Assembly: GCF_003569765.1 (NCBI RefSeq)
Contig: NZ_QXMG01000053.1
Span: 1 to 38,774 of the forward strand
Length of the DNA: 38,774 bases
Origin: Caldimonas tepidiphila
GTDB taxonomy: Bacteria; Pseudomonadota; Gammaproteobacteria; Burkholderiales; Burkholderiaceae_C
Reading direction: 5' to 3'
The translations under genes and the position numbers were made by a program. The notes beneath the pieces were generated by a model. The model made no database searches. It had not been told where the DNA came from and saw only the letters and a program-made list of their open reading frames with translations. Every line of letters begins with the position of its first letter. Within the stretch, counting starts at the first letter, position 1. Positions 2,564 to 20,771 of the stretch are shown piece after piece.

Positions 2564-2590
2564 TAAAGCCTTCGTCATGACTGACGATAA
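2564..2590 (+). promoter_or_regulatory. Candidate sigma-28 (FliA) flagellar promoter
   Basis: TAAAGCCT at 2564-2571, an 11-base spacer, then GACGATAA at 2583-2590. The known FliA consensus is TAAAGTTT-N11-GCCGATAA, so both half-sites and the spacing agree closely. It lies 35 bases upstream of the chemotaxis receptor ATG, the usual kind of target of this sigma factor. Confidence 0.75.
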
Positions 2591-2625: not shown

Positions 2626-4194
2626 ATGAACCTGCTCCGCTCGCTACGCATCGGCCGGCGCCTGGGCCTGGCGTTCGGCCTCGTGAACCTGATCTTCCTG
2701 GCCGTCATCGCGGTCACGGTCTACACGCAGGCCAAGCTTGCCGAGGCCGACCGCTGGAACGTCCACACCTACAAGGTCCTCGCCACCGGCAACGGCATGC
2801 TGGAGTCCATGCTCAACATGCAGTCCGGCGCGCGGGGCTTCCTGCTCACCGGCAACACGTCCTACCTGGCGCCCTGGACCGCGGGCCTGGCAGCCTTCTC
2901 CCGGAACTGGGAGGAGGCACGCCGGCTCACGAGCGACAACCCGACGCAGCAGCGACGGCTCGAGGCGATCCGAGCGCAGCACGAGCGGCTGCGGACGATG
3001 CTCGACGGCTTCATCGAGCGCCGCAGGGGCGCGGGGACGGATGCCCAGGCCCTCGCCCAGCTGACGCAGGCCTTGTCGGAGGGGCACGACAAGCAGGTCA
3101 TGGACGCCTACCGGGAGCTGCAGGCGCAGTTCTTCGACGCCGAGTCGGCTCTGCTGGCCGAGCGTGCGGCGGTGGCGAAGGAGCTGCGCGAGACGAACAC
3201 GCGCGTCGAGGTGATCGGCTGCGCGCTCGCCGTGCTGCTGACCTCGGCTCTCGGCGTCGCCATCACCCGCTCCGTGCTGGTGCCGATCCGTCAGGCGGTG
3301 GCCGTGACGGAGACCGTCGCCTCGGGTGACCTGCGCTGGAACACCGCGATCGACGGCAGCGACGAGCCGGCCGAGCTGTTGCGCGCGCTTCAGGCGATGA
3401 ACGTCAGCCTGGCCGCGGTGGTGGGCGCGGTGCGGACCAGTTCGGACAGCATCGCGACCGCATCGGGCCAGATCGCCTCCGGCAACGCCGACCTCAGTCA
3501 GCGCACCGAGGTGCAGGCGAGCAACCTGCAGCAGACCGCGGCGTCGATGGAGCAGCTCACCGGTACGGTCGGCAACAACGCCGAGGCGGCCCGCAGAGCG
3601 GCGGAGCTGGCCCGTGCCGCAAGCGACGTTGCGGTGCAGGGCGGCGAGGCGGTCTCGCGCGTGGTCGAGACGATGGACGAGATCACGACCAGCTCGCGCA
3701 AGATCGCCGACATCATCGGCGTGATCGACGGCATCGCCTTCCAGACCAACATCCTCGCGCTCAACGCGGCGGTGGAGGCCGCGCGTGCCGGCGAGCAGGG
3801 CCGCGGCTTCGCGGTCGTCGCCGGCGAGGTGCGCACCCTCGCCCAGAGAAGCGCCCAGGCCGCCAAGGAGATCAAGGACCTGATCGGCGAGAGTGTGCGA
3901 CGCGTGGAGGCGGGCAGCGGCCTCGTCGGCGACGCCGGCCGCACCATCGAGGAGGTGGTCACGCAGGTCCGCAGCGTCACCGACCTGATCAACGAGATCA
4001 GCGCGGCCACCCAGGAGCAGCGATCGGGCATCAGCCAGGTGGGAGACGCCGTGGGCCAGCTCGACCGGGTCACGCAGCAGAACGCGGCGCTGGTCGAGGA
4101 GAGCGCGGCCGCGAGCGACAGCCTTCGCCAGCAGGCGGCTCATCTCGTGGAAGCGGTGAGCCGCTTCCGGCTCGGCCAGGGGCAGGCCGCCTGA
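2626..4194 (+). CDS. Methyl-accepting chemotaxis protein
   Basis: A 522-residue transmembrane chemoreceptor. Domains in order: TM1 (about 12-33), a roughly 150-residue helical periplasmic sensor of the CHASE3 kind (with an ARGFLLTGN-like motif near residue 67), TM2 (about 194-215), HAMP (about 215-268), and a cytoplasmic signalling hairpin. The hairpin's tip has the invariant [20 protein letters not shown] sequence near residue 370. It would signal to CheA through CheW. Flanking methylation helices have the usual Glu/Gln-Ala pairs ([12 protein letters not shown]). The C-terminus ends LGQGQAA with no CheR-docking pentapeptide. A sigma-28 promoter precedes it and a hairpin follows it, suggesting a single-gene unit. 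No other che genes are in view, and the ligand is unknown. Confidence 0.95.
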
Positions 4195-4205
4195 AACGGA
4201 TAATC

Positions 4206-4223
4206 GCGGCCGTACCCGGCCGC
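4206..4223 (+). terminator. Hairpin after the chemoreceptor gene
   Basis: Perfect inverted repeat GCGGCCG (4206-4212), loop TACC, CGGCCGC (4217-4223), 11 bases past the stop codon. There is no T tract, so termination efficiency is uncertain. Confidence 0.45.
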
Positions 4224-4292
4224 ACGTGACCGGTCCCGGCGCAAACCGGGCGGCGGCGCGGTTCCCGCACACTTACTCGACGAAGCCCCCTA

Positions 4293-5786
4293 GTGACCTC
4301 CCGTCTTGCCTGCGTTGCCGGCGACTCCTCCTGGCTGCCCCCACTCTCCGAGGAGGTGGCACGTTTCAACGACAGCGATGCCTTCCTGCTGCAGGCGGCC
4401 CCCGAGTTCGAGGTCTATCTGGTGCACCAGCACCAGAGAGGCATCGGCGGCGCCGATCTCGTCCGGCTGATCCGCAAGCGCGGCCCCGCGGGCATCATCG
4501 CCGTCTCCGCATCCCCGCGCGAGGTCTTCGCCCGGATGCTGGACCTCGGGGCGGACATGGTGGTGGAGCAGTCGCTCGACCGCGCGCAGTGGGAAGCGGC
4601 GATTGCCGCGGTGCGCAGGCGCTTGAAGCCGGGCGAGGAGTGCTGGCGGCTCGATGCCGCGCTGCGCGTGCTCCGGGCGCCGGGCGGCCGGGAGGTGCCG
4701 CTCAGCGACGCCGAGTGGATCATCATGGATTGCCTGGCCGAGGCGGGCGGCGAGGCCGTGGCGAGACAGACGCTTGCGGAGCGCCTGTGGGGCCCCTCCG
4801 CCCACGGCTGCATGGACAACGCCCTGCAGGCCAGCGTGTACCGCCTGCGCCGCCGCATCGAGGACGCGGTCCCGGGGCGGGCGCCGATCCAGTCCGTCTC
4901 ACGCATCGGCTACCGCTTCGCGGCGGCGATGGAGCGCGAAGCGGCCCCGCCCCCCCCGCCGGCTCCCGAACCGGTGCTCGCGCCCTCGGTCCGGCACGGC
5001 GCTCGCTTCACCGGCGAGGAAGGCCCCGCACTGGTATTCGCGCACGGCTACGGCTGCGACCAGTCGACATGGGGAGCGATCGTGCCCGCGTTCTCCTGGG
5101 ATCACCGGACGATGTCCTACGACCTCGCGGGCCACGGAAAAGCGGCCGCCGGGAGCTACGAGGCGCAGGGCCGGCACGCCAGCCTGGCCGGTCACGCGCA
5201 CGACCTGCTCGATCTCTGCGACGAGGCGGGACTCGTCAAGCCGGTGTTCGTCGGCCACTCGGTGAGCGCGGCGATCGGCGTGCTCGCGGCCGCGGAGAGG
5301 CCGCAATACTTCGGGGCGCTGGTGCTGGTCGCGCCGACTCCGACCTATCTGAACGACGGGGACTACCGGGGAGGTTTCGAGCGGCAGGATCTGGAGCGGA
5401 TGCTCGCGGAACTCGACGCGGACCCGTCCCGCTGGGCGCGGGGCATGGCGCCCGTCATCATGGGGAATCCCGACCGGCCGCAGCTCGGCGCCGATCTCGC
5501 CGCGTCGTTCTGCCGCCTGGAGCCCGCCATCGCGCAGCACTTCGCCCGCGTGACCTTCCTGTCGGACATCCGCGCCCGCCTGCGCGAGGTACGCTGCCCG
5601 GTGCTGCTGCTGCAATGCCGGGACGACCCGCTCGCCCCCGAGGACGCAGGCCGGTTCATGCACGAGGCGCTGCCGGGCAGCTCGCTCGCGCTGCTGCAGG
5701 CGACCGGGCACTGCCCGCATCTCAGCGCCCCGCACGAGACCGTCGCCGCCATCCGGCGCTTCCTCGCGCAGCGCCCGGCGCGCTGA
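4293..5786 (+). CDS. Degenerate receiver + winged helix + RsbQ/KAI2-like hydrolase fusion regulator
   Basis: A 497-residue three-domain protein. Residues 1-111 follow the receiver fold, but the phosphoacceptor Asp position is His45 (YLVHQHQRGIGG) and the conserved Lys is Gln93, so ordinary phosphorelay control is unlikely. Residues about 116-210 are an OmpR/PhoB winged helix (PLSDAEW, LAERLWG, VYRLRRRIE, SRIGYRF) that should bind DNA. After a proline-rich linker, residues about 235-497 are an alpha/beta hydrolase of the RsbQ/KAI2/D14 type. The hydrolase shows HGYGCDQSTW, nucleophile Ser323 in VGHSVSA, YLNDGDYRGGFE, TFLSD, Asp445 in DDPLAP and His473 in GHCPHLSAP. I infer a one-component sensor in which a small ligand bound or hydrolysed by the C-terminal domain controls DNA binding. 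The GTG start at 4293 lacks a clear ribosome site. Confidence 0.88.
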   Translation: MTSRLACVAGDSSWLPPLSEEVARFNDSDAFLLQAAPEFEVYLVHQHQRGIGGADLVRLIRKRGPAGIIAVSASPREVFARMLDLGADMVVEQSLDRAQWEAAIAAVRRRLKPGEECWRLDAALRVLRAPGGREVPLSDAEWIIMDCLAEAGGEAVARQTLAERLWGPSAHGCMDNALQASVYRLRRRIEDAVPGRAPIQSVSRIGYRFAAAMEREAAPPPPPAPEPVLAPSVRHGARFTGEEGPALVFAHGYGCDQSTWGAIVPAFSWDHRTMSYDLAGHGKAAAGSYEAQGRHASLAGHAHDLLDLCDEAGLVKPVFVGHSVSAAIGVLAAAERPQYFGALVLVAPTPTYLNDGDYRGGFERQDLERMLAELDADPSRWARGMAPVIMGNPDRPQLGADLAASFCRLEPAIAQHFARVTFLSDIRARLREVRCPVLLLQCRDDPLAPEDAGRFMHEALPGSSLALLQATGHCPHLSAPHETVAAIRRFLAQRPAR

Positions 5787-5812
5787 CCCCGCCCCCGGCC
5801 GGAGGTACGCCT

Positions 5813-5824
5813 CTTGCCGGCAAG
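5813..5824. repeat. Short palindrome before the 82-residue gene
   Basis: CTTGCCGGCAAG is a perfect 12-base palindrome between the fusion regulator and the small gene. It could be a weak hairpin or a protein-binding site, and nothing else supports a role. Confidence 0.25.
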
Positions 5825-5854
5825 CGGGATCATCGATTTTCGAAGGAGATCACC

Positions 5855-6103
5855 ATGGGCAAATTCCTGCTCGGCTTTCTCGTCGGCATGGTCTCGACCG
5901 CCTCCTACATGTCGGCCCAGAGCCGCATGGCGTCGGGACGGGCGAGCCCGGCGACCGAGGGGCGGGTCGACGAGCTGTCGAGCGCGCTGAACAGCCCGGC
6001 GATGACGACGGTCGGCCTCAACGCGGGCGACGGCACGCCGAACCGGGGCGGTGGCACGGTGCGCGAGGCCTCGATCACCTCGCTCCCCGACACCCGCCAC
6101 TGA
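5855..6103 (+). CDS. Small membrane-anchored hypothetical protein
   Basis: An 82-residue protein of unknown function. It starts MGKFLLGFLVGMVSTASYM, one hydrophobic helix with a GxxxG-like GFLVG core, followed by a polar, glycine- and serine-rich tail that has no cysteines. The start is well supported: a strong ribosome site GAAGGAG lies seven bases before the ATG at 5855. The gene sits 68 bases after the RsbQ-like fusion regulator on the same strand, so the two may be cotranscribed or the regulator may control it. Its size and single helix would suit a membrane-associated stress or envelope peptide, but no family was recognised. Confidence 0.7.
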   Translation: MGKFLLGFLVGMVSTASYMSAQSRMASGRASPATEGRVDELSSALNSPAMTTVGLNAGDGTPNRGGGTVREASITSLPDTRH

Positions 6104-6173: not shown

Positions 6174-8075
6174 ATGCCCAAGCTGCTCTGGGTGACGCTG
6201 CCCCTCGTGGCGGCGCTGCTCGTGCTCGGCCTGCAGTGGCTGCGCCGGCGACCGCCGACCCGCCACGCGCTCAACGTCTGGTCGAGCCTGCTGCTGTTGG
6301 CCTACCTCGCCGCGACCGCGGGGCTGGGCATCTTCTGGGTGGCCTACCAGCAGCTGCCGGTCTTCGACTGGCACTACCTGTTCGGCTACGCGACGGTGCT
6401 GCTGCTCGGGCTGCACCTCGCCTTCAACTTCGGCACCGTATGGCGCCACCTGAGCCGGCGCCGGGCCCCGGCCGCCCGCCCCCCGGCCGGGCCGCGCCCT
6501 GCAGGGCGGCGCCGGCTGCTCGCCGCGGGCGGCGCGCTGGCGGCCAGCGGCGCGGCCTACCTGCTCGGCCTGCGCCACGGCGGCGGCGGGGCGGGCCTGC
6601 CGGCCGCGGCCCCGGTGGCGGGGAGCGCCCCGCTGCCCGCCGCCGATGCGGCGCTGGCGACGGTCGAGCGCTTCCACGCCCTCTCGGCGCATTCGCGCAG
6701 GGGGCTGCTGATGCAGGCGCCGCCGGTGTCCTGGGGCGAGGCGCCGCCGCCCTTCAAGCGCTACCCGCAGGCGCCGCGCGTGGCGCTGCCGCCGCCGGCC
6801 TTGGGTGGCGCCTGGCCGGAACTCGCGGCGCTGGGCACCGCGCTCTGGCACGTGGCGGGGCTGACCGATCCGCGCACGGCGCTGAACCTGCGCGCTGCGC
6901 CCTCGTCGGGCGCGCTGTTTCCCACTGAGCTCTACGTGGAGGTGCGCGCGCTGCGCGGGATCGAGCCGGGGCTGTGGCACTACGACGCGCGCACGCACGC
7001 GCTGGAGCGGCTGGGCGATCAGGCCGAGGCCGCGTCCCTCGGCGCGCCGGGCGAGGCCGCCGCGCTGGTGGTGGCCACCGCGGTCTTCCGCCGCACCGGG
7101 CGCAAGTACCGCGACCGCACCTACCGCTACGTGCTGGCGGACCTCGGCCACGGGCTGGAGAACCTGCGCGTGGCGGCGCGCGCGGTCGGCGCGCCGGCCC
7201 GGCTGGTGGCCCGCTTCGACGAGTCGCGCGTGGCGGCCGCGCTCGGCATCGACGAGGCCGAGGAAGGCGTGCTGGCGATGATGGCGCTGCTGCCGCCGGG
7301 CACGCCCCCGGCGGCCGGGGACGCGGCTGCCTGCCTGGCGCCGGTGGCGGTCCCGGCCGGCGCGACCGCCGCCTCGGCAGCAGCAGTACCGCTGGGCGTG
7401 ACGGACGCGGTGCACCGGGCCACCTCGCTGCGCCTGGCTCCCGGGGCGGGACCGCCGCCGCCCGTGCCGTCGCCGCACGGTCCCCTGCCCCTGCCGCCCG
7501 GCGGCGTCGCGCTGCCCCCGGCGGCGGCGCTGCGCGCCGACGTGCTGGCGCTGATCGCCGCGCGCCGCTCGGTGCGCCGCTTCGAGGCGACGCCGCTGCC
7601 GCTGGAGGCGCTCGCCGGCGTGCTGGCTGGCATCGCGCAGCCGCCGCAACTGTCGCCCGCGGTGCACGTCGACTTGGTCGTCAACGCCGTCGCGGGCCTC
7701 GCGCCCGGCGCCTACCGCCACGACCCGCAGCGGCAGGCGCTGCTGCCCAAGCGCGTGCCCGCGGACCTGCGGGCGGCGGCGCACGCCGCGGCGCTGGACC
7801 AGGACGCGATCGGCGGCGCGGCGGTGGTGTTCGTGCTGTCGGTGGAGCGATCCGCATTCGCCGCCGACGCCTGCGGCGCCGCGCGCGGCTACCGGCACGC
7901 CTTCCTCGAGACCGGGCTGGTCGGCGAGCGCATCTACCTGGAGGCCGGCGCGCGCGGCCTCGGCGCCTGCTCGGTCGGCGCCTTCTACGACGACGAGGCC
8001 TCGGCGCTGGTGGGCGTCGATCCGGCGCGCGAATGGGTGCTGCACTTCTCCGCGCTCGGCATCCCGGCGCGCTGA
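6174..8075 (+). CDS. Membrane-anchored tandem SagB-type nitroreductase
   Basis: A 633-residue protein. The N-terminus has three hydrophobic segments (about 5-22, 31-55 and 62-85) with histidines in WHYLFGYATVLLLGLHLAFN that resemble haem-ligand pairs of small cytochrome b-like membrane domains. A fourth segment with a preceding Arg pair lies near 110-130. A SagB-type flavin oxidoreductase domain follows (about 150-420, with FKRYPQAPR, PSSGALFPTELYVEV and YRYVLADLGH). A second nitroreductase domain spans about 460-633 (AARRSVRRFEATPL, GERIYLEAGARGLGACSVGAFYDDE, HFSALGIP). Such proteins bind FMN and oxidise or reduce small substrates, and some SagB relatives modify peptides. No precursor peptide or cyclodehydratase gene is nearby. 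The link between the haem-like anchor and flavin domains is inferred. Confidence 0.85.
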   Translation: MPKLLWVTLPLVAALLVLGLQWLRRRPPTRHALNVWSSLLLLAYLAATAGLGIFWVAYQQLPVFDWHYLFGYATVLLLGLHLAFNFGTVWRHLSRRRAPAARPPAGPRPAGRRRLLAAGGALAASGAAYLLGLRHGGGGAGLPAAAPVAGSAPLPAADAALATVERFHALSAHSRRGLLMQAPPVSWGEAPPPFKRYPQAPRVALPPPALGGAWPELAALGTALWHVAGLTDPRTALNLRAAPSSGALFPTELYVEVRALRGIEPGLWHYDARTHALERLGDQAEAASLGAPGEAAALVVATAVFRRTGRKYRDRTYRYVLADLGHGLENLRVAARAVGAPARLVARFDESRVAAALGIDEAEEGVLAMMALLPPGTPPAAGDAAACLAPVAVPAGATAASAAAVPLGVTDAVHRATSLRLAPGAGPPPPVPSPHGPLPLPPGGVALPPAAALRADVLALIAARRSVRRFEATPLPLEALAGVLAGIAQPPQLSPAVHVDLVVNAVAGLAPGAYRHDPQRQALLPKRVPADLRAAAHAAALDQDAIGGAAVVFVLSVERSAFAADACGAARGYRHAFLETGLVGERIYLEAGARGLGACSVGAFYDDEASALVGVDPAREWVLHFSALGIPAR

Positions 8076-17102: not shown

Positions 17103-18908
17103 TTACAGCTTGCCCGCGCCGGCCTTCGCCAGCACCTCGGCCTTGACGGCGCCCGTCGGCTGGGCCGTGTAGGCGTAGCTCGTGCCCGGCTTCCAGTAGT
17201 CATTCAGGGAACGCACCAGCACCGTGCTGCCGCCGGCCCGGCCCTGCGCTGCGGCGAGCAGGCTGCCGTCGGCGAGTGCCGTGCCGTTGAGCAGCGTGCC
17301 GATGTCCTGGAAGTAGGTGTCGCAGTCGGCGGCGGAGTAGCCTGCCGCGACGCACCTGTCGCGGTTGGCGGTGGTCGACGACACCGAGTCGCCCATCGTC
17401 AAGCGGGACGGCGTCGGCAGCGCGTCCCCGATGGCGCCGGGCAGGATCTCCAGCATATTGTTCTCGACGTAGAGCTTGGACGCGGTGCCGATCTGCCAGG
17501 CCACCGACCAGGCGTAGTCCGGCGAGGGCAGGCTGCTGCTCCGCGGCTTGAGCGTGCCGGTGTAGTAGTTGTTGTAGACGTGGACCTTGCCGAAGCGGCC
17601 GCGCGGCTGGCGCTGCACCGTGTCCTGGTAGTGGTTGTGGTGCAGCGTGACCGCGAGCTTGTCGGGGCCGTAGCTCGCCACCTCACGGTTGCCGTCGCTG
17701 AAGCGCTCCGCGACGTCGTTGCCGCCGATCAGGTGCGTCTTGTCGTGCTGGCGGAACTGGTTGTAGGAGATCGTGACGCGGTTGCCGAACATCGTCACGT
17801 CGACCAGGCCGTCGTGGTGCTGCACCTTCTGCTCGGGCACGTTGAAGGGCGCCGCCCAGGTCGGCACCGGCGGGTCCATCTTGTCGGGGCGGGCACCATC
17901 GCTGAAGGTGTTGCGGTCGATCCAGACGTTGGTGGCGTTGAGCACCGAGATCAGGTCGTACTCGGCGTTCCAGCGCCCGCCCCTGCGGCTCGGGCACTTG
18001 TGCGGGCCGGTGTCGGCGACCGCGTCGTAGACCTTGCGGCAACTGCCGGTGTTGAACTCGCTCGCGGTGATGCTGAACGAGTCCTTCGGGTCCCAGCCGG
18101 GGAACATGTCGTAGGAGTCCTCGAACGCGATGTTGCGGATCACGATGTTCTCCGCCCTGATGTTCTCGGCGAGCAGCGTCCGGCCCGCCGCGTCCTTGCC
18201 CGAGCCGAAGCTGAAGTCGCCCAGGCGCAGGTTGCCATTCATGATGCGGGCGTCGCTGCCGAGGCCGAGGATGGACGTGTTGGAGCCGACGCGCAGCACC
18301 ACGCGCCGGGCCTGCTCGTTCGCGAAGCAGGCACGCTGGCCCTCGAGCGTGAGCTTGCCGTCGGCATCGGTGAAGGGCAGCAGCGGCGGCCGGTTGTCGG
18401 CCTCCAGCGACTGCCTGATCCACAGGTTCGGGTCGTAGGCCGCCTTGTACGCGGCGTCGAACTCGGCGAACGAGGCGTAGCTCGTCTCGCACTTGCGCAT
18501 GTAGTCCTCGTGCGTCAGCGGCACGCCCTCGTCGTCGACGTTGAGGTCCACGGTGCCGCTGATGTAGATGATCTTCCTCGTGTTGTCGGGACGTGCCGCG
18601 AGCGGGTCGTCCACCACCTTGCCGTACAGCGCCTTGACGAGCTGCTGCCGGTTCTTCACGACGTAGACATGCTTGGCGTCGGCGCCCTCGCCGCCGGTGA
18701 CCGGGTAGCTGCCGCCGTCCGCGCCGACGGTGGCCCAGCCGTCCGCTCCGAGCGACGAGGGCGGGTTCGCAACCTTCTTCGCCGCGATCGGCGTGCGCGC
18801 CGGGCCGTCGCCGGCCTCCCCGCCGCCGCCGCAGGCGGACAGCAGCGCGGCGAGGCACGCCAGGGTGATCGTGGTGACGGCAGGGCGCCGGATGTCGGAA
18901 TTGTTCAT
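17103..18908 (-). CDS. Pectate lyase, family PL1, lipoprotein
   Basis: A 601-residue secreted enzyme that cleaves polygalacturonate by beta-elimination. The signal peptide ends in a lipobox LLSAC, with Cys26 as the lipidation site, followed by a Gly run and a linker. The right-handed beta-helix has WIDRNTFSDG, DGLVDVTMFGNRVTISYNQF (near residue 367, Ca2+-binding Asp) and the PL1 active-site stretch RQPRGRFGKVHVYNNYY (near residue 436) with the catalytic Arg. Cysteines near residues 155-305 may form disulfides. At 601 residues it exceeds single-domain PL1 enzymes because of an N-terminal extension and inserts. It follows the pectinesterase gene by 44 bases, so the two work in sequence: demethylation, then cleavage. 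Confidence 0.93.
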   Translation of the reverse strand: MNNSDIRRPAVTTITLACLAALLSACGGGGEAGDGPARTPIAAKKVANPPSSLGADGWATVGADGGSYPVTGGEGADAKHVYVVKNRQQLVKALYGKVVDDPLAARPDNTRKIIYISGTVDLNVDDEGVPLTHEDYMRKCETSYASFAEFDAAYKAAYDPNLWIRQSLEADNRPPLLPFTDADGKLTLEGQRACFANEQARRVVLRVGSNTSILGLGSDARIMNGNLRLGDFSFGSGKDAAGRTLLAENIRAENIVIRNIAFEDSYDMFPGWDPKDSFSITASEFNTGSCRKVYDAVADTGPHKCPSRRGGRWNAEYDLISVLNATNVWIDRNTFSDGARPDKMDPPVPTWAAPFNVPEQKVQHHDGLVDVTMFGNRVTISYNQFRQHDKTHLIGGNDVAERFSDGNREVASYGPDKLAVTLHHNHYQDTVQRQPRGRFGKVHVYNNYYTGTLKPRSSSLPSPDYAWSVAWQIGTASKLYVENNMLEILPGAIGDALPTPSRLTMGDSVSSTTANRDRCVAAGYSAADCDTYFQDIGTLLNGTALADGSLLAAAQGRAGGSTVLVRSLNDYWKPGTSYAYTAQPTGAVKAEVLAKAGAGKL

Positions 18909-18952
18909 GGGTTCGCTGGGGTGGGTGCTGTGGGAAATCGGAGCGGCGGCGT

Positions 18953-20209
18953 TCAGCGCGCGGGCGCGTTGTGGAACTCGGCGAAGCGGTTGCCCTCGGC
19001 GCTGTAGGCGCGGCCCGAGGTGGACCGGGCCCAGGGGTCGAGCGGGCGGATGTGCGCGCCGAGCGTGCTGTTGCGGATCAGCAGCTGGCCGTTCGGCGAG
19101 CGGCCGGCGACGTAGGGATTGGTGGCGGCGTTGACCCCCTCGTCCCAGGCGCGGCCGAGGTGGATCGTGCCGGCGGGCGCGCCCGCGTCGGCGGTGAGCT
19201 CGCTGTTGATGATCAGCATGCCGTAGCGGTGCAGCGGCGAGGTGCTCGGCGCCAGCATCGCGGTGCCCTGGCCGACGGGCAGCCGGGTGCTCAGGTAGTG
19301 CAGCGTGCAGCGGTGCAGCACCATCGTGCCGCGGCCGAAGACGAAGTCGACGTCGCCCTCGACATGGCAGTCGCGGAAGTAGGCGCGCGAGACGGTCGAG
19401 GCATTGGCCGTCTTCACGTAGAGCGAGTCCTGGTGGCCGAGCACGCGCACCCGGTCGAACACGAGCCGGTCGGCCTGCGTCATCAGCGCCACCGCCTGCG
19501 CGCCGCTCGAGCCCGAGGCCCCGGCCGGGTAGCCGCTGCCGTGGACCACGTCCTTCATCGCGTCGTTGGCGAAGGTGAGGTTCTTGGCGTGGAAGTCGTC
19601 GCTGTAGATCGCGACCGAGGCGCTGCCGCTGGTGCCGTAGGTGCGCGACGACAGGCTCGGGTTGCAGGGGTTGGCCGACTCGACGTTCGCCACCTTGGGG
19701 CGGCCGTTGTAGTTGCCGTTGACGATCACGACCTCGCCGGCATCGGCGCCCGCGCCGTAGAGCGTGATCGGCGCCTTGTCTCGCACGCACACCAGCTCTC
19801 GGTAGGTGCCGGGCTTGACGAGGATGAAGTGGCGCGGCGCGCCGCTCGCCGCGGCCGGCACCGCGTCGAGCGCCGCCTGCACCGTCGTGTGGGTGCCGCT
19901 GCCGTCGGCCGCGACGACGAAGTCCGGCGTGAAGCTCGCCACCTCGCCCACTTCCGGCGGCATCCAGCCATCGGTGCTCAGGCCGCTGCCGTCGCTGCCG
20001 AGCTGGCCCGCCTGCGCGAAGTAGCGCGCGATCGTGTACTGCGCGGCCTCCTGTCCGTCGAGCTGGGGCCGCGTGGCGGTGCCGGCCGGCGGCTTCGCCA
20101 AGGGCGCCTCCCGGGTTTCGGCCGCACCGCCACCGCCTCCGCCGCAGGCGCTCAGGAAGGCGGAGGCGACCAGGGCGGCGACGAGGCCGAGCCGGAATGG
20201 AGACTGCAT
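18953..20209 (-). CDS. Pectinesterase, family CE8, lipoprotein
   Basis: A 418-residue secreted pectin methylesterase. A lipoprotein signal ends FLSAC (Cys22) and is followed by a Gly run. The beta-helix carries the CE8 signatures in order: a start like VAADGSGTHTTVQAALDAVP, QAVAL near residue 240, GHQDSLY with the acid/base Asp near 258, DVDFVFGRG with the nucleophile Asp near 288, and LGRAWDEG with the Arg near 352. It removes methyl esters so that the downstream pectate lyase can act. The ATG at 20209 follows GAGAGGA; an ATG 36 bases upstream would put that ribosome site inside the gene. It is the first gene of a two-gene pectin-degradation operon, preceded by a KdgR-like palindrome. Confidence 0.93.
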   Translation of the reverse strand: MQSPFRLGLVAALVASAFLSACGGGGGGAAETREAPLAKPPAGTATRPQLDGQEAAQYTIARYFAQAGQLGSDGSGLSTDGWMPPEVGEVASFTPDFVVAADGSGTHTTVQAALDAVPAAASGAPRHFILVKPGTYRELVCVRDKAPITLYGAGADAGEVVIVNGNYNGRPKVANVESANPCNPSLSSRTYGTSGSASVAIYSDDFHAKNLTFANDAMKDVVHGSGYPAGASGSSGAQAVALMTQADRLVFDRVRVLGHQDSLYVKTANASTVSRAYFRDCHVEGDVDFVFGRGTMVLHRCTLHYLSTRLPVGQGTAMLAPSTSPLHRYGMLIINSELTADAGAPAGTIHLGRAWDEGVNAATNPYVAGRSPNGQLLIRNSTLGAHIRPLDPWARSTSGRAYSAEGNRFAEFHNAPAR

Positions 20210-20262
20210 GGAGGGGTCCTCTCTGGTGAAGTGCGGCGCCATCGGGGGCGGAACAATAAATT

Positions 20263-20275
20263 GAAACGACGTTTC
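20263..20275. promoter_or_regulatory. KdgR-like operator candidate of the pectin operon
   Basis: GAAACGACGTTTC is a perfect 6+1+6 palindrome. Read with its flank it is TGAAAC-GAC-GTTTCG, close to the enterobacterial KdgR core TGAAAC-N3-GTTTCA. It begins 53 bases upstream of the pectinesterase ATG and directly abuts the -10 candidate, a position suited to repression. The regulator identity is inferred. Confidence 0.5.
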
Positions 20276-20281
20276 GTTATA
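20276..20281 (-). promoter_or_regulatory. -10 element candidate for the pectin operon
   Basis: On the minus strand this reads TATAAC, five of six bases of the sigma-70 -10 element. No good -35 box stands 17 bases upstream, so an activator may be required. The palindrome at 20263 follows it immediately. Confidence 0.4.
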
Positions 20282-20771
20282 GGACATCGTATGAGTGGAG
20301 CGAGCGAAAGACATCCTCGACAACCCCGATAGCGGCGCCTCCTTGATCTTTGGTAAGACCGTCTTCCTGCAGATCAGAGGATGAGCCTGGACGCTCCCCT
20401 CCCTGGGGAGGTTGGCGCCCAAGCGCGGCAAGGAGTTACGACGACGTACTTCTTCTGACGGTGTTCGAGCGGAGGGGGCGCGCAGCGACACGGAGGGCGG
20501 GACTGCGGCGCCATGGGGTGGCGGCGCGGTCCGGCCTGCGCACGCGATGTGCAGCGCGCTGCGCCGGGGCTGGCGCGCAAGGGGGGAGCGCCTGCGCGGC
20601 GACGAGCGCGCAGGGCAAGGCTCGGGAAGGACGGCCCAGCAGGGGCCGGCCGATGGACGGGCGCTCTTGCGGCGAACCCGGCGGGGTGCACGCCGGCCCG
20701 GACAGCGCCGTGCCCGGGGGACAGGCGTGGCGGGACGGCCGCTGCGCCTCCTGCCTACGCCGATGGCGGGC
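20282..20771. other. Gene-free region upstream of the pectin operon
   Basis: Between the pectin promoter and the end of the acyl-CoA synthetase gene no credible coding sequence was found. All frames are arginine- and alanine-rich with no family resemblance. The only structured element noted is TTTGGTAAGACCGTCTT (20350-20365 area), which has a PdhR/FadR-like TTGGT-N3-ACC core and the small palindrome AAGAC-C-GTCTT (20355-20365). Confidence 0.4.

Follow-up and report, generated by a model that had tools for sequence, protein, structure and literature searches.

The window, by which we mean the whole 38,774-bp stretch of DNA that was analysed, carries at positions 4293–5786 of the plus strand a gene that reads as a single 497-amino-acid frame with a GTG start and zero internal stops. 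It joins a pseudo-receiver (4293–4640, approximately residues 1–116), an OmpR-type winged helix (4686–4919, residues 132–209), a proline-rich linker and an RsbQ-type alpha/beta hydrolase (5001–5765, residues 237–491), all on the plus strand, which confirms the fusion of a dead receiver, a winged helix and a hydrolase that a first-pass annotation of the sequence had noticed. The winged helix was said there to be intact; it is recovered by Pfam as Trans_reg_C (residues 132–209, 1.3e-12) and retains the YRLRRRIE block in the alignment. The hydrolase is matched by Abhydrolase_6 (residues 247–486, 7e-21) and Abhydrolase_1 (residues 245–479). Pfam gave zero matches at E ≤ 1 on the receiver part, approximately the first 116 residues, and the pseudo-receiver is recognized from the alignment and a table of its residues. 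NCBIfam response-regulator models align from residues 29–53 to approximately 209, with scores far below their cut-offs.

The start at 4293 places four residues before the first strand, versus five in the homologue at L018 and 12 in that at L139. A codon-usage gene caller favoured a start at 4356, with which the first strand would be lost. An AlphaFold2 model of the protein reaches a pLDDT of at least 89 in 16 of the 27 ten-residue blocks of the hydrolase, with a lowest block of 63. Every ten-residue block of the N-terminal half stays at 60 or below, which is expected because the input alignment spanned the hydrolase alone. A contact between the hydrolase and this low-scoring regulator half could not be modelled, and this counts against the reading that we come to favour.

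Directly upstream, across a 98-bp gap in which there is no promoter-like or terminator-like match, lies an MCP gene with a CHASE3 sensor domain (2626–4194, plus strand), which is a likely operon partner and target of the fused protein. The genes that follow encode an 82-amino-acid protein and then a nitroreductase-family protein. A 633-amino-acid protein at 6174–8075 has two nitroreductase-family stretches after an N-terminus that looks membrane-like by eye, and pectate lyase and pectinesterase family genes are adjacent at 17103–20287 on the minus strand. A search against Rfam gave zero matches.

In an alignment with live homologues, the phosphoacceptor Asp position of the fused protein is occupied by His45, the conserved Lys position by Gln93, and the acidic cluster by VAGDS. 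The first-pass reading of a dead receiver therefore holds, as the alignment does not restore either residue. The Asp and Lys expected of a canonical OmpR/PhoB regulator are both replaced, and a receiver-like N-terminus without its key residues, followed by a winged helix, places the protein by sequence among the atypical OmpR/PhoB regulators. We surveyed 45 homologues from the fetched loci, of which 40 are live and 5 dead. The phosphoacceptor Asp, the Ser or Thr, and the Lys are kept in all 40 live proteins, and the acidic cluster in 39, the remaining one being truncated at that place. In the five dead relatives, the Asp position is taken by E, E, E, Q or A and the Lys column contains no Lys, with the G736 protein carrying a Lys one residue before it.

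These 45 homologues do not exhaust the matches to a profile, A2, that was built from the dead proteins with the query included and searched in 399 genomes of the family. Matches at E ≤ 1e-25 occur in 58 of these genomes, and their scores are split by a gap: six proteins, from the fused gene's own genome and from G439, G579, G607, G706 and G736, reach 249–364 bits, and the remainder stay at 207 or below. In a 47-row tree, the six dead rows cluster together (100/99) inside the live rows, and the query branches first among them, though several long branches leave that order unsure. At 1e-30, three of 330 order genomes have a match, namely the own genome and two live types from the same family; at 1e-62, matches are found in four of 389 relatives (own, G439, G579 and G607), and in none of the eight genus mates. 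These genome samples overlap, and each includes the own genome. Judged from the profile scores and the tree, the N-terminal half falls in a clade of pseudo-receiver/winged-helix proteins that sits inside the live regulators; it has six members, and the other five are unfused. This clade, its BLUF and MCP gene neighbours, and the absence of a second fusion from the genomes searched were not noticed in the first-pass annotation.

At the loci of all five dead relatives (L173, L174, L175, L177 and L220), a divergent MCP gene adjoins the regulator, and a short BLUF gene lies tail to tail with it on the other side. The BLUF assignment is confirmed by Pfam in three of the five (L173, L174 and L177) and that of the MCP in two (L173 and L177), the others being identified by BLAST; the L175 BLUF protein, found by tblastn, is 64–83% identical to those of L173 and L174. 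In the neighbourhoods of 19 live regulators, a set to which seven other live loci (L170 and L182–L187) do not belong, BLAST found BLUF in none and an MCP-like match somewhere in the stretch in five. The arrangement of BLUF, pseudo-receiver/winged-helix regulator and MCP is conserved in five genomes from four genera, and is itself a candidate for a chemoreceptor switch controlled by light. No BLUF gene was found in the window by tblastn, and the own genome has two elsewhere. Two points count against the reading that we favour: the gene order in the window differs from that of the relatives, and the window MCP has a CHASE3 domain where the MCPs of the two scanned relatives have a 4HB domain.

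Turning to the hydrolase half, the best match among solved structures in a phmmer search is B. subtilis RsbQ (1wom, 1.8e-70), followed by D14/KAI2-type entries at approximately 1e-50 to 1e-36. The catalytic triad is complete, with Ser323 (codon 5259–5261), Asp445 (5625–5627) and His473 (5709–5711), all on the plus strand, in columns that are invariant across 51 rows. The first-pass annotation had identified this triad and had assigned the domain to the RsbQ/KAI2/D14 type, and the phylogeny that it had called for agrees: a 61-row tree separates the RsbQ-type rows, KAI2d4 and D14, as a single group, from other hydrolases (99/97). The annotation had also suggested that the hydrolase responds to a bacterial signal of butenolide type. 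The superfamily that the domain has in common with KAI2 and D14 makes this conceivable, but the query nests within a 30-row bacterial group (100/95) and, inside it, an eight-row group (96/87) with L170, L171, L176, L178, L179/L088 and L180, apart from KAI2d4 and D14, which branch off together with two bacterial rows (91/90). A butenolide signal is left unsupported by this placement, and we consider it highly improbable. The nearest named record in the tree is L088, from Aquincola tertiaricarbonis. We had considered a loss of conserved surface residues as a mark of the fused domain (19 of 103 missing), but L088, from its own tree group, lacks 16 of 104, so this feature is not specific.

The intact triad also fits another explanation, in which an ordinary enzyme that merely degrades a compound is attached to a constitutive DNA-binding protein acting by its amount; constitutively active pseudo-receivers are among the models discussed in the accessible text of PMC12632262. 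The company kept by the domain's nearest relatives speaks for a signalling role instead. In all five scanned members of its tree group (L170, L171, L176, L178 and L180), the RsbQ gene is followed by one for a PAS-GGDEF-EAL protein, as with RsbQ-type signalling proteins, and does not adjoin metabolic genes, and we regard the ordinary enzyme as unlikely.

Three further RsbQ genes are present in the own genome, to whose products the fused hydrolase is 47–54% identical. The gene after L004 encodes a PAS histidine kinase, that after L003 is a 539-amino-acid frame with a PAS match, and L002 is surrounded by GAF, EAL and GGDEF genes (GGDEF by eye). As described in the part of PMC3183031 available, known RsbQ proteins work on an RsbP-type PAS domain, and it could be argued that the fused RsbQ domain likewise acts through a separate PAS protein elsewhere, with the pseudo-receiver half a mere dock or competitor. 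The genome does hold two good PAS matches and five weaker ones (E 2e-6 to 1e-3). Both good matches, however, lie directly behind their own RsbQ genes, and the fused gene has no adjacent PAS match and hence lacks the downstream RsbP-type PAS gene of an RsbQ-PAS module, making a separate PAS partner a decidedly unlikely explanation. Two of the fetched loci deserve a remark of their own. At L188 (6986–7804), an own-genome RsbQ gene sits among GAF-EAL, GAF and GGDEF genes (GGDEF by eye) with no adjacent RsbP-type PAS match, and at L189 (4–7856), an RsbQ gene and its PAS-kinase gene appear, by eye, to be part of a cluster of chemosensory type that has receivers on both sides and that L039 and L040 may resemble.

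So far, a single instance of the fusion has been found. A match spanning residues 1 to 497 was found in the own genome only, among the matches listed for 60 relatives, in nine genomes of the genus, and in 399 genomes each of the order and the family at approximately three scored candidates per genome, with the own genome included in every set. In a contig search that confirmed 574 loci, none of the best 80 has a match starting before residue 191. Three candidates that looked like fusions by alignment span were rejected: the codon-usage gene caller resolved G778 (L171) and G727 (L172) into separate 288-amino-acid hydrolase genes, and G019 (L013) has an internal stop inside the match. G048 was matched over residues 149–491 at 30%, again with an internal stop. 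In Geodermatophilus, Streptomyces and others, the region upstream of RsbQ contains long open frames, which by eye appeared to be GC-rich read-through in a part of the loci that did not include L013, L057 and L116. Because the fusion is a singleton, its conservation cannot be shown, which counts against our preferred reading. A singleton in a draft genome of 178 contigs could also be an assembly or sequencing artefact that joined two genes, but the coding frame is continuous through the proline-rich linker, and 47–54% identity to the three other RsbQs precludes a mis-join with those; we think an artefact very unlikely.

We then looked for a candidate DNA site. Across the 1465 bp of the six RR-MCP regions, the inverted repeat TCA-N4-TGA occurs 11 times, versus once across the remaining 91,814 bp of these loci, and 2000 dinucleotide shuffles gave a mean of 0.50 sites, with none reaching 11; these figures overstate the enrichment, as the pattern was picked after viewing these regions, the window's included. 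The background count is 225 in 1,456,779 bp, which if anything is too high because parts of that set overlap and some of its loci were retrieved for a loose form of the pattern. The window contains three copies, at 2553, 2575 and 9657, two of them within the 128-bp region before the MCP gene, and none lies at 4200–4300 or 5787–5855, where the first-pass annotation had guessed that the DNA sites would be. The copy closest to the MCP start is 41–89 bp upstream in all six loci, where for L220 the start was taken as the homologue of L173's and the region was extended by hand, so the repeat recurs at a similar place. The two copies before the window MCP, predicted operator 1 (TCAGAAATGA, 2553–2562) and predicted operator 2 (TCATGACTGA, 2575–2584), are 22 bp apart; exact pairs at this distance are also present in L173 and L175, and L174 has one with a single mismatch. 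No such pair occurs in L177 or L220. A word search in seven promoter regions was less successful than the gapped palindrome, finding the 8-mer CTGACGAA in four of the seven and no 9-mer or 10-mer common to four.

These repeats could belong to another regulator, with the fused protein acting elsewhere, and this possibility gains from the motif having been found after the fact and from the overlap of the window sites with a sigma28-like promoter. The strict forms of the motif, TCAGTTCTGA and TCAGAACTGA, nonetheless occur nine times in 40 loci that hold live regulators of the fused protein's own family (225,741 bp) and not once in 214 other loci (1,337,544 bp, partly overlapping). The nine sites fall in six loci, five of which form one close group. 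Such a distribution suggests that the motif goes with the winged helix rather than with MCP promoters in general. The related pattern TCAGWWNTGAY is also rare: the 5.47-Mb genome contains only four sites, of which one is in the window. Taken with this rarity, a different regulator seems to us improbable. Since the other three sites lie near no called gene, near transposase-like genes and near plasmid-type genes (by eye), we do not claim a wider regulon. Two results weigh against the motif as part of our reading: genome-wide, GTCAN4TGA, a loose pattern, exceeds its control only about twofold (129 versus 65), and in a scan with a matrix built from nine sites picked by hand in the relatives, a weaker tool than the pattern, the window sites rank third and fifth in 38.8 kb and are outranked by two AT-rich stretches. 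As a separate observation, strict TCAGTTCTGA palindromes are carried by the loci of live regulators L212, L209, L218 and kin and, converted to L186 coordinates, are flanked by a small gene and a gene resembling malate synthase (both named by eye), which are possible targets of those regulators.

The sigma28-like promoter, TAAAGCCT-N11-GACGATAA (2564–2590, plus strand), overlaps the pair formed by both predicted operators. It has three mismatches to the consensus in 16 positions, is the sole match at four or fewer, and is equalled at three mismatches by none of ten mononucleotide shuffles. Zero sigma28-like matches at up to five mismatches occur before the relatives' MCP genes, which again counts against our reading. 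The position of the predicted operators on the promoter suggests repression, though position alone is no proof of the sign.

On balance we lean, with little more than even confidence, towards an RsbQ-gated, phosphorylation-independent OmpR-type regulator of its own MCP operon. The winged helix would bind the paired TCA-N4-TGA repeats at the MCP promoter, and the bound regulator would control a chemoreceptor operon that contains its own gene, the MCP gene and the fusion presumably forming one operon, with this control possibly exerted against sigma28. A small molecule bound or turned over in the hydrolase pocket may alter the dimer of the pseudo-receiver or how tightly it holds DNA. In this simplest account, the regulator would need no kinase, and the RsbQ domain would be its likely switch. 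The first-pass interpretation thus survives in its domain identities and in its view of a regulator that resembles a one-component system and takes its input from a hydrolase, which is the best reading here, and fails in its butenolide signal and its guessed DNA sites.

RitR is an OmpR-type regulator. Together with ChxR and GlnR, it resembles the fused protein in having a winged helix that follows a receiver-like domain devoid of the phosphorylation residues, but the fused protein adds a C-terminal hydrolase as a likely input, and its relatives adjoin BLUF genes. The accessible portion of PMC12632262 reviews pseudo-receivers and terms the way they are switched a mystery, and the terms BLUF and hydrolase are absent from that paper. 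The RsbQ-PAS module, as in B. subtilis RsbQ/RsbP and relatives, likewise uses an RsbQ-type hydrolase with an intact triad as signal input, and differs in that here hydrolase and DNA-binding regulator share one chain and the adjacent PAS gene is missing. The available sections of PMC3183031 describe 45 such modules with a phosphatase, kinase or cyclase output, two of them uncertain, whereas the output of the fused protein is a winged helix, and the word 'winged' is absent from that paper. In the same sections, triad substitutions abolish RsbQ signalling in Bacillus, the sensed cue is described as remaining mysterious, and whether the hydrolase or the PAS domain does the sensing is left undecided.

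KAI2 and D14 receptors have the hydrolase superfamily and catalytic triad in common with the fused domain, which differs from them in sitting among bacterial RsbQs. They also have plant signalling partners, to which nothing at the fused gene corresponds. E. coli BluF acts on a partner regulator, BluR. Short BLUF proteins such as BlsA, which works with Fur in the portion of the literature available, also act on a partner regulator, and the BLUF genes beside the relatives suggest a similar separate sensor, in contrast to the window, which has no BLUF gene and where the sensor would be the RsbQ domain in the same chain. Three BLUF proteins are recorded for Ramlibacter tataouinensis in the accessible part of PMC3164672. 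In a literature search by title, neither this fusion nor the BLUF locus was described among the titles listed.

The fusion probably arose from two parents of kinds present in its family, a BLUF/MCP-linked pseudo-receiver regulator and an RsbQ that normally has a PAS-GGDEF-EAL partner. A bolder and more speculative proposal is an input swap, in which a BLUF-partnered, phosphorylation-free chemoreceptor regulator traded light for a metabolite by means of an RsbQ domain from a c-di-GMP operon. We put this forward tentatively, and equally so its premise, drawn from gene neighbourhood, that the input is light in the relatives and a metabolite here. This small pseudo-receiver clade offers two candidate inputs, a BLUF neighbour at five loci and a built-in RsbQ domain at one, together with a candidate DNA site common to its six members, and an RsbQ domain joined directly to a DNA-binding domain, for which an operator is predicted, could serve as a simple reporter for ligand discovery. 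If the input swap is true, the choice of chemoreceptor would be tuned by a directly sensed intracellular ligand, and an RsbQ signal could be read in the absence of a PAS partner.
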